Shown here: piece after piece, positions 5,868-43,263 of the stretch
Numbering within the stretch: the stretch's first letter is position 1
How the letters are laid out: each line of letters opens with the position of its first letter
NCBI RefSeq assembly: GCF_004366375.1
Contig: NZ_SOEF01000022.1
Location: 1 to 43,263, forward strand
Direction: 5' to 3'
Source of the DNA: Halanaerobium congolense
GTDB taxonomy: Bacteria; Bacillota; Halanaerobiia; Halanaerobiales; Halanaerobiaceae
Length of the DNA stretch: 43,263 bases
Notes under the pieces: generated by a model
The model's database searches: none
What the model was told of the DNA's origin: nothing
The model's input: only the letters and a program-made list of their open reading frames with translations
Program-made: the position numbers and the translations under genes

Positions 5868-5877
5868 TGTATATACA
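5868..5877. promoter_or_regulatory. Candidate MarR operator 1 (TGTATATACA)
   Basis: This perfect 10-bp palindrome lies directly after the -10 box of the marR promoter, over the expected transcription start. A near-identical motif, TGTATGTACA, occurs upstream of the next gene (6381-6392). The repeated occurrence suggests binding by the MarR product encoded between them. Confidence 0.55.
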
Positions 5878-5926
5878 AGTGTTATTGATTATTTGAATAA
5901 ATAGAAAGAAAAGAAAGGAAAAGTAG

Positions 5927-38286: not shown

Positions 38287-38320
38287 ATCCCTGTAAAGTT
38301 CTGCAGGGATTTTTATTTTA
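38287..38320 (+). terminator. Terminator before the NiaR unit
   Basis: ATCCCTG and CAGGGAT form a 7-bp stem with a 10-nt loop and a T-rich tail. It lies just left of the duplicated segment, and is not duplicated with it. Confidence 0.85.
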
Positions 38321-38343
38321 ATTTTAAAAATAGAATTAATGTC

Positions 38344-38372
38344 TTTACAGATGTCATGACAGATGATAGAAT
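38344..38372 (+). promoter_or_regulatory. niaR promoter, copy 1, with NiaR-type operator in the spacer
   Basis: TTTACA (38344-38349) and TAGAAT (38367-38372) are 17 bp apart. The perfect palindrome TGTCATGACA (38352-38361) fills the spacer. It resembles the NiaR/YrxA operators known from Bacillota and would make the unit self-repressed in the presence of niacin. Confidence 0.7.
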
Positions 38373-38404
38373 GTTTAGCATAGCAGCTAAATTTAATTAT
38401 TGAG

Positions 38405-38935
38405 GTGATAAAAATTAAAACTAAGGAAAGACGAGGTAAATTGCTGCAGAGATTAAAAGCGTCTCAGCAGGCATTGATTGGTTCTCAATTGGCAGAGGAA
38501 TTTGGGGTTAGTCGTCAGGTTATTGTTCAAGATATTGCTCTTTTGAGGGCAGAAGGGGAGAAGATAGTTGCCACTTCTCAGGGATATTTCTATGAAAAAA
38601 ATTTGGGGATGCCAACTGTTAAAGCTTCTATTGCCTGCTCTCACGATGATCAGCAAGAATTAAAAGATGAACTTTTGACTGTTGTTAATTATGGAGGTAG
38701 AGTTATTGATGTTAAAGTTGAACATCCAATTTATGGTGATTTAAGCGGTAACTTAATGATCAGCAGCAGAGAAGATGTTGATAATTTTATAAAAAATTAC
38801 AGAGAAAATGAGGCCTCATTACTTTCTAAACTTACAGAGGGTGTCCATTTGCATACAATTGAAGCTGTTAATAGGCAGGTTTTAAAAAAGATTAAAGAAG
38901 AATTAAAAGAAAAAGGATATTTGTTGGAGGAATAA
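38405..38935 (+). CDS. niaR: Niacin-responsive transcriptional repressor NiaR, copy 1
   Basis: NiaR has about 176 residues. An N-terminal winged helix-turn-helix (LIGSQLAEEFGVSRQVIVQDIALLRAEG, about 25-52) precedes a 3H domain with the conserved histidines in VEHPIYGDL and GVHLHTIEAV. These bind nickel and nicotinic acid in characterised members. NiaR represses niacin uptake and NAD synthesis genes. The start is uncertain: the GTG at 38405 is itself part of the site GAGGTG, and a rare ATT at 38414 would be correctly spaced from it. A matching operator lies 45 bp upstream, and a transporter gene follows, consistent with autoregulation of an uptake unit. Confidence 0.9.
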   Translation: MIKIKTKERRGKLLQRLKASQQALIGSQLAEEFGVSRQVIVQDIALLRAEGEKIVATSQGYFYEKNLGMPTVKASIACSHDDQQELKDELLTVVNYGGRVIDVKVEHPIYGDLSGNLMISSREDVDNFIKNYRENEASLLSKLTEGVHLHTIEAVNRQVLKKIKEELKEKGYLLEE

Positions 38936-38995
38936 TTTTTTATTTTTACTGTAAAGACAGCTGTATATTCAGCTATAATATTGGGGGTTATAAAT

Positions 38996-39196
38996 TTGGG
39001 AAATGATAAATTAAAAAAATTAAGATTACTTTATGTGGCATTGATTTTACTGCTTGTACTTAGTGCTTTGACTGTTCCTTATCTTATGTTAAATTCGATT
39101 AATCTTTTTAGAGGGGCTTTTCTATTCTGGCTTTTTTTTGCTTTAATTGTTATCTTTTTAACTATAAAAATTACAACTTACTGGAGGGATAATTAA
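38996..39196 (+). CDS. Small two-helix membrane protein, probable symporter partner, copy 1
   Basis: This 66-residue protein starts with TTG 38996, 8 bp after GGGGG (38983-38987). Two transmembrane segments (about 8-30 and 37-57) with basic ends are clear. Small genes of this type (YhdT- or DUF3311-like) often lie directly before sodium:solute symporter genes. Its stop overlaps the symporter start (TAATG), so production is coupled. A role in assembly or stability of the symporter is inferred. Confidence 0.8.
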   Translation: MGNDKLKKLRLLYVALILLLVLSALTVPYLMLNSINLFRGAFLFWLFFALIVIFLTIKITTYWRDN

Positions 39197-40683
39197 TGCC
39201 GATATCATATTTATATACAGCAATAATTTTATACATAATAATTGGCTCGATAGTTGCTTTAATGGCCAGACGAGAAATGAATGATGGAGTTGTCGAATAT
39301 TTTTTAAGTGGTAGGAATACAGGGGGGGTTGTGGCTGCTCTTTCTTATAGTGCTACTACCTATAGTGCTTTTATGATGATTGGTCTGGCAGGCTTTACAT
39401 ATTCAGGTGGAGTTGGAGCACTTGGATTTGAGCTTATTTATTTATCAGGCTTGTCTCTAGTAGCATTTTTTGGTCCCCGGTTTTGGTTAATTGGGAAAAA
39501 AAATAATTATGTTTCACCTTATGAAATGTTGGGTGATCGTTATCAAAATCAGTGGATAGCTTTTGCAGCTTCACTTTCGGCCTGCATTTTTTTAATTCCA
39601 TATCTTGCAGTTCAGCTAATGGGAGTTGGCTATCTCTTGAATGGACTCTCAGATGGTGAAATTCCATTTATTTTTGGAGTCGCAATAGCTGTAATGCTGG
39701 CAATCGCCTGGGCCTTAATTGCTGGCATGAAATCTGTTACCTGGACTGATTCTCTGCAGTCATTAATTATGATTGTAATCAGTGTAATTATTTTATTTTA
39801 TGTAATCTATCAGAATTTGGGTGGTTTTAAAGATTTTTTTGATTCACTTGCAGCTCTGGAAGGAAATGTATTAACTGTACCTGGACCAGGATTTTTTAAA
39901 TTTAAAACATTTCTTGGGTTGAGTCTGCCCTGGTTTTTCTTTTCTATCTCTAATCCCCAGGTTAGTCAGCGTCTTTTTATTCCCCGAGATTTAAAAGCTA
40001 TGAAAACAATGATCAAAGGCTTTTTAGTTTTTGGATTTATTTATACTTTAGTTTCAGTTTTTTGGGGATTTTCAGCTAGACTTTTAATTCCTGGACTGAG
40101 TAATGCAGATTTGGCAACACCAGAGCTTCTAGCATCTCAATATGTGCCAACTGCTTTAGCACTGGCAGCCATGATTGGAATAACAGCTGCTGCAATTTCC
40201 ACCATTGATTCAATAATGCTGACTTTATCTTCACTTGTAGTTAGAGATATTTTCAAAAATATGGAGGATAATTTGGATCAAGAGCAAAATTTAAGACAGC
40301 TGCGGACAGCTAAAATTGCTATTTTGATTATCGCTCTTTTAGGATTTTTCTTTGCTATTCAGGAGCTCGACTTAATTGCCACTCTCTCAGTAGCAGCTTC
40401 AATTGGACTGCTGGTTGTAGTTCCCTCGATTTTTGGTGCTTTTTTCTGGAAAAAAGCTACAGCTGCTGCATCTTTGAGCAGTATTATAATTGGTTCGATT
40501 ACTGCTTTATACCTCCAGTTTAGCAGCTGGAGTCCACTGGGTCATGGTGCCGGAGTTTGGACACTGCTCGTTTCAACAGCAGTTTTTGTTATTGGCAGCT
40601 TATTTACTGAAGCTCCGACAGAAAAAGCTGATCAATTTATAGATTATATAAATGAAGAATGTAGGCAAAGAAATATAATTTAA
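39196..40683 (+). CDS. Sodium:solute symporter family transporter, copy 1 (candidate niacin-related uptake)
   Basis: This 495-residue polytopic membrane protein has about 13 predicted helices and the SSS-family features EYFLSGRNTGG near the first loop, SYSATTYSAFMMIGLAG, and AAAISTIDSIMLTLSS in the region of the second sodium site. GGAGGG precedes the ATG. It sits in one unit with niaR under a NiaR-like operator. Known NiaR-linked transporters are NiaP, NiaX and NiaY types, not SSS members, so nicotinate or a related compound as substrate is a hypothesis. Pantothenate-type symporters (PanF) are the nearest family alternative. Confidence 0.88.
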   Translation: MPISYLYTAIILYIIIGSIVALMARREMNDGVVEYFLSGRNTGGVVAALSYSATTYSAFMMIGLAGFTYSGGVGALGFELIYLSGLSLVAFFGPRFWLIGKKNNYVSPYEMLGDRYQNQWIAFAASLSACIFLIPYLAVQLMGVGYLLNGLSDGEIPFIFGVAIAVMLAIAWALIAGMKSVTWTDSLQSLIMIVISVIILFYVIYQNLGGFKDFFDSLAALEGNVLTVPGPGFFKFKTFLGLSLPWFFFSISNPQVSQRLFIPRDLKAMKTMIKGFLVFGFIYTLVSVFWGFSARLLIPGLSNADLATPELLASQYVPTALALAAMIGITAAAISTIDSIMLTLSSLVVRDIFKNMEDNLDQEQNLRQLRTAKIAILIIALLGFFFAIQELDLIATLSVAASIGLLVVVPSIFGAFFWKKATAAASLSSIIIGSITALYLQFSSWSPLGHGAGVWTLLVSTAVFVIGSLFTEAPTEKADQFIDYINEECRQRNII

Positions 40684-40727
40684 AAGTTATTGACAATTAT
40701 AATCTATAATTTTAATTCAGATTGAGC

Positions 40728-40756
40728 TTGACAAAAGATCTTTTATAAGATAAAAT
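40728..40756 (+). promoter_or_regulatory. Consensus promoter at the end of unit 1, with a palindrome in the spacer
   Basis: TTGACA (40728-40733) and TAAAAT (40751-40756) are 17 bp apart. The 12-bp palindrome AAAAGATCTTTT (40733-40744) begins at the last base of the -35 box. In the ancestral arrangement it would have driven the gene to the right of the unit; after duplication this copy points into niaR copy 2, about 100 bp away. Confidence 0.75.
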
Positions 40757-40798
40757 TATTAAAAATCAAGTGATAATTAAAATTAAAAAATTAAAAAC

Positions 40799-40827
40799 AT
40801 TACAGATGTCATGACAGATGATAGAAT
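40799..40827 (+). promoter_or_regulatory. niaR promoter, copy 2, with altered -35 box
   Basis: This is the counterpart of 38344-38372. The operator TGTCATGACA (40807-40816) and TAGAAT (40822-40827) are unchanged, but the -35 reads ATTACA because the duplication junction falls after its first base. The first T of the -35 box is normally well conserved, so this promoter should be weaker. Confidence 0.65.
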
Positions 40828-40859
40828 GTTTAGCATAGCAGCTAAATTTAATTATTGAG

Positions 40860-41390
40860 GTGATAAAAATTAAAACTAAGGAAAGACGAGGTAAATTGCT
40901 GCAGAGATTAAAAGCGTCTCAGCAGGCATTGATTGGTTCTCAATTGGCAGAGGAATTTGGGGTTAGTCGTCAGGTTATTGTTCAAGATATTGCTCTTTTG
41001 AGGGCAGAAGGGGAGAAGATAGTTGCCACTTCTCAGGGATATTTCTATGAAAAAAATTTGGGGATGCCAACTGTTAAAGCTTCTATTGCCTGCTCTCACG
41101 ATGATCAGCAAGAATTAAAAGATGAACTTTTGACTGTTGTTAATTATGGAGGTAGAGTTATTGATGTTAAAGTTGAACATCCAATTTATGGTGATTTAAG
41201 CGGTAACTTAATGATCAGCAGCAGAGAAGATGTTGATAATTTTATAAAAAATTACAGAGAAAATGAGGCCTCATTACTTTCTAAACTTACAGAGGGTGTC
41301 CATTTGCATACAATTGAAGCTGTTAATAGGCAGGTTTTAAAAAAGATTAAAGAAGAATTAAAAGAAAAAGGATATTTGTTGGAGGAATAA
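40860..41390 (+). CDS. niaR: Niacin-responsive transcriptional repressor NiaR, copy 2
   Basis: The encoded protein is identical to the niaR product at 38405, with the same winged helix and 3H domain, and the same uncertain start (GTG 40860, or ATT 40869 behind GAGGTG). Transcription can come from its own altered promoter, from the consensus promoter at 40728, or by read-through from unit 1, since no clear terminator separates the units. Two copies could raise repressor dose. Confidence 0.9.
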   Translation: MIKIKTKERRGKLLQRLKASQQALIGSQLAEEFGVSRQVIVQDIALLRAEGEKIVATSQGYFYEKNLGMPTVKASIACSHDDQQELKDELLTVVNYGGRVIDVKVEHPIYGDLSGNLMISSREDVDNFIKNYRENEASLLSKLTEGVHLHTIEAVNRQVLKKIKEELKEKGYLLEE

Positions 41391-41450
41391 TTTTTTATTT
41401 TTACTGTAAAGACAGCTGTATATTCAGCTATAATATTGGGGGTTATAAAT

Positions 41451-41651
41451 TTGGGAAATGATAAATTAAAAAAATTAAGATTACTTTATGTGGCATTGAT
41501 TTTACTGCTTGTACTTAGTGCTTTGACTGTTCCTTATCTTATGTTAAATTCGATTAATCTTTTTAGAGGGGCTTTTCTATTCTGGCTTTTTTTTGCTTTA
41601 ATTGTTATCTTTTTAACTATAAAAATTACAACTTACTGGAGGGATAATTAA
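41451..41651 (+). CDS. Small two-helix membrane protein, probable symporter partner, copy 2
   Basis: Identical to the gene at 38996: 66 residues from TTG 41451 behind GGGGG, two transmembrane helices, and a stop that overlaps the symporter ATG. No base differences were seen, so both copies should be equally functional. Confidence 0.8.
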   Translation: MGNDKLKKLRLLYVALILLLVLSALTVPYLMLNSINLFRGAFLFWLFFALIVIFLTIKITTYWRDN

Positions 41652-43138
41652 TGCCGATATCATATTTATATACAGCAATAATTTTATACATAATAATTGG
41701 CTCGATAGTTGCTTTAATGGCCAGACGAGAAATGAATGATGGAGTTGTCGAATATTTTTTAAGTGGTAGGAATACAGGGGGGGTTGTGGCTGCTCTTTCT
41801 TATAGTGCTACTACCTATAGTGCTTTTATGATGATTGGTCTGGCAGGCTTTACATATTCAGGTGGAGTTGGAGCACTTGGATTTGAGCTTATTTATTTAT
41901 CAGGCTTGTCTCTAGTAGCATTTTTTGGTCCCCGGTTTTGGTTAATTGGGAAAAAAAATAATTATGTTTCACCTTATGAAATGTTGGGTGATCGTTATCA
42001 AAATCAGTGGATAGCTTTTGCAGCTTCACTTTCGGCCTGCATTTTTTTAATTCCATATCTTGCAGTTCAGCTAATGGGAGTTGGCTATCTCTTGAATGGA
42101 CTCTCAGATGGTGAAATTCCATTTATTTTTGGAGTCGCAATAGCTGTAATGCTGGCAATCGCCTGGGCCTTAATTGCTGGCATGAAATCTGTTACCTGGA
42201 CTGATTCTCTGCAGTCATTAATTATGATTGTAATCAGTGTAATTATTTTATTTTATGTAATCTATCAGAATTTGGGTGGTTTTAAAGATTTTTTTGATTC
42301 ACTTGCAGCTCTGGAAGGAAATGTATTAACTGTACCTGGACCAGGATTTTTTAAATTTAAAACATTTCTTGGGTTGAGTCTGCCCTGGTTTTTCTTTTCT
42401 ATCTCTAATCCCCAGGTTAGTCAGCGTCTTTTTATTCCCCGAGATTTAAAAGCTATGAAAACAATGATCAAAGGCTTTTTAGTTTTTGGATTTATTTATA
42501 CTTTAGTTTCAGTTTTTTGGGGATTTTCAGCTAGACTTTTAATTCCTGGACTGAGTAATGCAGATTTGGCAACACCAGAGCTTCTAGCATCTCAATATGT
42601 GCCAACTGCTTTAGCACTGGCAGCCATGATTGGAATAACAGCTGCTGCAATTTCCACCATTGATTCAATAATGCTGACTTTATCTTCACTTGTAGTTAGA
42701 GATATTTTCAAAAATATGGAGGATAATTTGGATCAAGAGCAAAATTTAAGACAGCTGCGGACAGCTAAAATTGCTATTTTGATTATCGCTCTTTTAGGAT
42801 TTTTCTTTGCTATTCAGGAGCTCGACTTAATTGCCACTCTCTCAGTAGCAGCTTCAATTGGACTGCTGGTTGTAGTTCCCTCGATTTTTGGTGCTTTTTT
42901 CTGGAAAAAAGCTACAGCTGCTGCATCTTTGAGCAGTATTATAATTGGTTCGATTACTGCTTTATACCTCCAGTTTAGCAGCTGGAGTCCACTGGGTCAT
43001 GGTGCCGGAGTTTGGACACTGCTCGTTTCAACAGCAGTTTTTGTTATTGGCAGCTTATTTACTGAAGCTCCGACAGAAAAAGCTGATCAATTTATAGATT
43101 ATATAAATGAAGAATGTAGGCAAAGAAATATAATTTAA
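41651..43138 (+). CDS. Sodium:solute symporter family transporter, copy 2
   Basis: The 495-residue product is identical to that of 39196-40683, with the same sodium-site segments and about 13 helices. Having a second full copy should raise uptake capacity if both are expressed. The gene ends 125 bp before the right edge of the window, so its downstream neighbour is not visible. Confidence 0.88.
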   Translation: MPISYLYTAIILYIIIGSIVALMARREMNDGVVEYFLSGRNTGGVVAALSYSATTYSAFMMIGLAGFTYSGGVGALGFELIYLSGLSLVAFFGPRFWLIGKKNNYVSPYEMLGDRYQNQWIAFAASLSACIFLIPYLAVQLMGVGYLLNGLSDGEIPFIFGVAIAVMLAIAWALIAGMKSVTWTDSLQSLIMIVISVIILFYVIYQNLGGFKDFFDSLAALEGNVLTVPGPGFFKFKTFLGLSLPWFFFSISNPQVSQRLFIPRDLKAMKTMIKGFLVFGFIYTLVSVFWGFSARLLIPGLSNADLATPELLASQYVPTALALAAMIGITAAAISTIDSIMLTLSSLVVRDIFKNMEDNLDQEQNLRQLRTAKIAILIIALLGFFFAIQELDLIATLSVAASIGLLVVVPSIFGAFFWKKATAAASLSSIIIGSITALYLQFSSWSPLGHGAGVWTLLVSTAVFVIGSLFTEAPTEKADQFIDYINEECRQRNII

Positions 43139-43182
43139 AAGTTATTGACAATTATAATCTATAATTTTAATTCAGATTGAGC

Positions 43183-43211
43183 TTGACAAAAGATCTTTTA
43201 TAAGATAAAAT
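43183..43211 (+). promoter_or_regulatory. Consensus promoter at the end of unit 2
   Basis: This is the second copy of the 40728 promoter: TTGACA (43183-43188), 17-bp spacer with AAAAGATCTTTT, TAAAAT (43206-43211). It points out of the window and probably drives the next gene to the right. Confidence 0.7.
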
Positions 43212-43263
43212 TATTAAAAATCAAGTGATAATTAAAATTAAAAAATTAAAAACATTGATCAGG

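Follow-up and report, generated by a model that had tools for sequence, protein, structure and literature searches.

We propose that niaR, a small membrane-protein gene and an SSS-family symporter gene of Halanaerobium congolense very likely form an operon for niacin uptake, controlled by the repressor that it encodes, in which the symporter would import nicotinate with Na+. The original prediction had put the symporter forward as a candidate new type of transporter for niacin or a related compound, and this proposal gained support from the operators, the linkage to niaR and nadABC and the nicotinate-fermentation clusters described below.

The niaR unit and its tandem copy

The window, the whole stretch of DNA analysed, is the first 43,263 bases of the 54,963-base contig C22 of a 2.83-Mb draft genome. 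The three genes had been predicted to form one unit, and this was confirmed by open frames on the same strand with tight spacing (Table 1). The SSS gene is followed in this genome by a T-box leader and then by pheA and further genes for aromatic amino acids, whose names were assigned by eye. The leader lies 5' of pheA, downstream of the unit (L058, 442-690), and was also observed in L067 and L059.

The whole unit is duplicated exactly in tandem (2457 bases, 2-base overlap), which the original prediction missed. A 92-N scaffold gap starts at 43264, and about 100 bases preceding the gap recur beyond it. The duplication may be an assembly artefact, because the second copy ends 7 bases before the gap with overlapping flanks; alternatively, it may be a real amplification. 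Given the gap-adjacent copy, the overlapping gap ends and the single SSS match in each of the 18 remaining genomes of the order that carry the gene, we set aside an explanation by gene dosage.

Table 1. Features of the niaR unit in the window
Feature	Position	Strand	Remarks
Terminator-like hairpin	38287..38310	+	Boundary between the unit and the preceding gene; 1 found, 0.4 expected
NiaR box TGTCTTTACA	38340..38349	+	Overlaps -35 of the niaR promoter; missing in copy 2
Candidate niaR promoter TTTACA-17-TAGAAT	38344..38372	+	TTTACA at 38344, TAGAAT at 38367
NiaR box TGTCATGACA	38352..38361	+	Box of the original prediction, inside the 17-nt spacer
niaR, HTH_11 + 3H niacin-responsive repressor	38405..38935	+	Frame, domains, ligand residues
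Transporter-pair operator TGTAAAGACAGCTGTATATTCA	38950..38971	+	Followed by TATAAT at 38974
Small membrane protein, 71 residues	38981..39196	+	Alternative start TTG at 38996
SSS-family symporter, proposed Na+/nicotinate symporter	39196..40683	+	Pfam, fold, tree
Second copy of the unit	40800..43256	+	Exact match to 38345-40801
Copy 2, niaR	40860..41390	+	
Copy 2, operator	41405	+	
Copy 2, small membrane protein	41436..41651	+	
Copy 2, SSS symporter	41651..43138	+	

NiaR and its operators

The regulator carries an HTH_11 domain (PF08279, 53 bits) and a 3H domain (PF02829, 123 bits, E 6.7e-36), each with a cut-off of 25 bits, and its best solved relative was B. halodurans NiaR (E 8e-45). The metal and niacin ligands given for the B. 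halodurans protein are His83, Glu91, His150 and His152 (PMC7713382), and these align with H80, E89, H148 and H150 of the window protein. Judged by its domains, residues and operator type, the regulator is NiaR, and its DNA binding would depend on niacin.

The type I NiaR operator is described as TGT-N4-ACA (PMC7713382), and three boxes of this form were found within the unit. The palindrome TGTCATGACA was found where it had been predicted, in a promoter spacer between TTTACA and TAGAAT. This niaR promoter ranked best among promoter-like sites in the region, and alone is weak evidence because 8 such sites were found against 4.6 expected from shuffles. Two further boxes were missed by the original prediction: TGTCTTTACA, over the -35 of this promoter, and TGTAAAGACA (38950-38959). 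The latter lies directly 5' of the small/SSS pair and is the best conserved of the three. From the position of the TATAAT that follows, we infer that this operator covers the -35 region of a putative transporter promoter.

A box of the TGTAAAGACA type stands 5' of the small gene in two deeper Bacillota MAGs as well as in most Halanaerobium loci. Genomes that lack this SSS gene have the same box 5' of nadA or of niaR-nadA. We built an operator matrix from eight niaR/nadA boxes picked by eye, seven from 5 of 20 upstream regions and one from G046; the remaining 15 regions had no clear box, or other boxes. The matrix was scored on the 200 bases 5' of the small gene in 25 SSS genomes with 100 shuffles each, and 22 of the 25 had a site scored above all shuffles. 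The score of G181 was reached by 3 of 100 shuffles, and the matrix failed in G111 (88/100) and G046 (64/100), as well as in four loci without adjacent niaR (100, 20, 85 and 43 of 100). G149, which has a contig break there, was excluded from the 25, and its box was observed separately.

Across the 2.83-Mb genome, TGTMWWKACANNTGT gave nine matches, five of them in the locus and its copy, and the reversed pattern gave none. Three of the four other matches lie within reading frames and one before a MarR-type gene, and on this ground we rejected further NiaR-controlled genes in this genome. The 7-kb pncB region was without a TGT[AC]AAGACA or TGTCTT[TG]ACA box. At 5868-5882 of the window, TGTATATACAAGTGT lies 5' of a MarR-type and a nitroreductase-like gene (both identified by eye); it is probably a site for the MarR-type regulator rather than for NiaR.

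The SSS transporter and its small partner

The symporter matched PF00474 with 137.6 bits (cut-off 22.8), and all of its Pfam matches were to SSF; PnuC (PF04973) was matched neither by this protein nor elsewhere in the genome. Its AlphaFold model (pLDDT 85.8) has the LeuT-type SSS fold. In a Foldseek search of the model, 5nv9 was the best match (E 6.4e-15), and the animal transporter SMCT1 (7sl9) was also matched at 17% identity. In an alignment with SiaT, using the residues that we take to form its Na2 site, A53, A332, S335 and T336 of the SSS protein fell at these positions and were invariant in 16 of 16 sequences. The Na2 site is described as consisting of one small residue, in cTMD1, and a pair of Ser/Thr residues in cTMD8 (PMC7918813, section 4.1).

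Relatives of the SSS protein from named species, at 88-90% identity, are in Halanaerobium saccharolyticum and H. kushneri. In a tree, all of these SSS proteins clustered together (100/99), separate from PanF, PutP and ActP of E. coli and also from the other SSS paralogue of the window's genome; the outer order of the tree is unsure because of long branches. The small protein (about 65-71 residues) was without a known family in Pfam and profile searches and probably has two helices, as read from its sequence. YhjB/YhjC of B. subtilis were considered as possible relatives; a literature search on them returned nothing useful.

We considered whether the protein might be a PanF-like pantothenate symporter that happens to sit in a NiaR operon. 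TIGR02119 (panF) was indeed its best NCBIfam match (E 4.3e-47), but at 161.2 bits it reached about half of the equivalog cut-off of 328.05, and its identity to E. coli PanF is 28%, compared to 27% between PanF and PutP. The E. coli panF gene likewise has a small membrane-protein gene, yhdT, directly 5' of it; however, the two small partners are unrelated by profile comparison, as the protein of the unit had no match to PF06196 (control YhdT, 97.6 bits) and hhalign gave a probability of 0.2%. We therefore rejected PanF orthology on cut-off, identity and partner, and YhdT as the family of the small protein. Pantothenate would be needed just as much as niacin, because PanB is missing in 14 of the 19 genomes of the order that carry the SSS gene, and in 12 of 12 genomes of the window's genus. 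Against this, PanB is present in five SSS genomes of the order, and the nad and nicotinate-fermentation neighbours have no link to pantothenate. Pantothenate transport is, on balance, quite improbable, and we retain niacin as the probable substrate.

Linkage to niaR across genomes

Counting SSS relatives at E <= 1e-100, we found them in 9 of 149 genomes of a phylum sample and in 19 of 38 genomes of the order, 26 different genomes overall. In 21 of the 26, niaR lay at most 2 kb from the SSS gene. The 3H protein was present in 9/9 SSS genomes of the phylum sample, compared to 62/149 overall, and in the order it was present in 18/19 genomes with the SSS gene and 3/19 without it. The corresponding Fisher values (2.6e-4 and 6.5e-7, respectively) are merely descriptive because related genomes are not independent.

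Individual loci departed from this arrangement in several ways. In G161, niaR is gone, with an apparent insertion sequence in its place, and the operator is kept; therefore, uptake may be unregulated there. A transposase-like gene pair was seen by eye at the expected niaR position (L061, 8529-10012). The G149 locus is split over two contigs, one ending in niaR-small and the other starting in the SSS gene. In G059 a box-like site is present and niaR is located elsewhere, and in G111 the SSS gene is within a nicotinate-fermentation cluster. G046 has the SSS gene without an operator and niaR elsewhere; its small-SSS pair was observed directly 3' of a LarE-like gene (by eye; L064, 5205-6209), with no NiaR box. 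A pattern search, which favours near relatives because the patterns came from the window's protein, gave four extra SSS loci: L019, in nicotinate fermentation, and L017, L020 and L022, with no niacin link.

The last three loci speak for the possibility that the symporter carries an unrelated solute and is hitch-hiking in the operon, as does the fact that SSS substrates are not readable from sequence. The same SSS/small pairing, however, recurs in several families of the phylum, the operator adjoins the pair itself, and the pair is kept where nadABC is gone, making such hitch-hiking extremely unlikely. The original prediction called for other genomes to be searched for this SSS subfamily beside niaR or NiaR operators, and niaR or a box adjoined it in most. 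Homologues occurring mostly with other regulators or pathways were looked for and were not what we found.

In three Halanaerobiales without the SSS gene (G171, G172 and G176), niaR is followed by a membrane protein of about 180 residues (L097 3485-4033, L098 1176-1706, L099 1714-2244). The protein had no Pfam or NCBIfam match in the two of three tried and no PDB match in the one tried. It is perhaps another niacin transporter.

NAD genes and nicotinate-fermentation clusters

The gene order niaR-small-SSS-nadA-nadB-nadC, with a second nadA after it, was found in G158 and G160. In G158, 32 bases separate the SSS gene and nadA. The nad genes of G158 were identified by family models, and those of G160 by search (nadA) or by matching frames (nadB, nadC). 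The second nadA 3' of nadABC is a paralogue (L059, 9960-10886, in G158; likewise in G160). A nadA stump of 38 residues lies 3' of the SSS gene in G156, and nadE lies directly 5' of niaR in G149. Loss of nadABC is the simplest explanation because G160 has nadABC between the SSS gene and the pheA region.

The genome of the window has PncB (TIGR01513, 590 bits, cut-off 297) and lacks NadA. We rejected NadA absence as the mark of an SSS-specific niacin need, since in the order NadA is absent from 15/19 genomes with the SSS gene and from 14/19 without it. It counts against the proposal that NAPRTase (PF04095) was detected in only 9 of the 19 genomes of the order with the SSS gene; misses are possible, not shown, because the model recognises this protein poorly and scored just 46 bits on the window genome's own PncB.

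Two members of the SSS subfamily, both without an adjacent niaR, are encoded inside nicotinate-fermentation clusters, a catabolic context rather than one of NAD salvage, and different from that of the window. In L018 (Clostridiales PH28_bin88), whose contig is as long as one of G111, genes for FAD, iron-sulphur and two Mo subunits are followed by the SSS gene with its small gene, then by an enamidase gene (best match 2vun, E 2.8e-166). The Mo subunits matched the two chains of nicotinate dehydrogenase far above any other chain, 3hrd_A with 500 bits (next best 211) and 3hrd_B with 354 bits (next 175); in NCBIfam the subunits were xanthine-dehydrogenase-like, below cut-off. L019 (Moorella UBA4076) has a medium Mo subunit (3hrd_B, 335 bits) and an enamidase. 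Enamidase catalyses a step of nicotinate fermentation.

We name nicotinate as the proposed substrate because it is common to NAD control and nicotinate breakdown. Import of a different precursor of NAD (nicotinamide, quinolinate or a riboside) would be compatible with NiaR control and with the 10 of 19 SSS genomes in which NAPRTase went undetected. The clusters of nicotinate dehydrogenase and enamidase point instead to nicotinate, as does PncB in the window's own genome, and we consider another precursor unlikely.

Discussion

In the mechanism that we propose, NiaR with nicotinate bound would sit on the boxes of the niaR and small/SSS promoters and turn both off, and the pair would be made when niacin is scarce. 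The SSS protein would then bring in nicotinate, or less probably nicotinamide, together with Na+, as would suit a halophile, and the small protein would serve as the accessory subunit of the symporter. Imported nicotinate would be converted to NAD via PncB in this NadA-less genome. NiaR binding, transport substrate, Na+ coupling and the role of the small protein were each inferred.

The unit resembles NiaR (YrxA) regulons in the repressor family, the type I boxes and the control of a niacin transporter and nadABC. The NiaR-controlled niacin transporters named in PMC7713382 and PMC6593275 are NiaP, NiaX and NiaY, in line with the original prediction that the known ones belong to other families; the candidate described here, whose Pfam matches are all to SSF and which comes with a small partner, probably lies outside these three. 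The idea of an SSS protein that carries nicotinate has a precedent, because SMCT1 (SLC5A8), which has the SSS/SLC5 fold too, transports nicotinate together with Na+ (PMC5368959). SMCT1 is, however, a broad monocarboxylate transporter of animals without NiaR control, and its likeness to the window protein is the fold match. Our literature search, which did not extend to the 2008 NiaR regulon and 2006 nicotinate-cluster papers, found no SSS niacin transporter, and niacin, nicotin- and pantothenate go unmentioned in the SSS review PMC7918813. A bacterial SSS niacin carrier under NiaR with a small subunit thus appears to be new, within the known SSS superfamily.

We think it probable that the pair represents a fourth prokaryotic niacin transporter family, a Na+/nicotinate symporter made of the SSS protein and a small membrane subunit and serving both NiaR-controlled NAD salvage and nicotinate fermentation. 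The Halanaerobiales ancestor would have had niaR-small-SSS-nadABC, and most species would since have lost nadABC and become halophiles that depend on niacin. Niacin transport is a known gap: of the niacin auxotrophs predicted in a gut genome survey, just 25% had one of the three known transporter families (PMC6593275). Part of this gap would be filled by a family that is driven by Na+ and can be told by its NiaR control and by nicotinate-fermentation clusters. The putative accessory subunit would be a further object of study, and the family may explain how the vitamin reaches halophiles that are auxotrophic for it.
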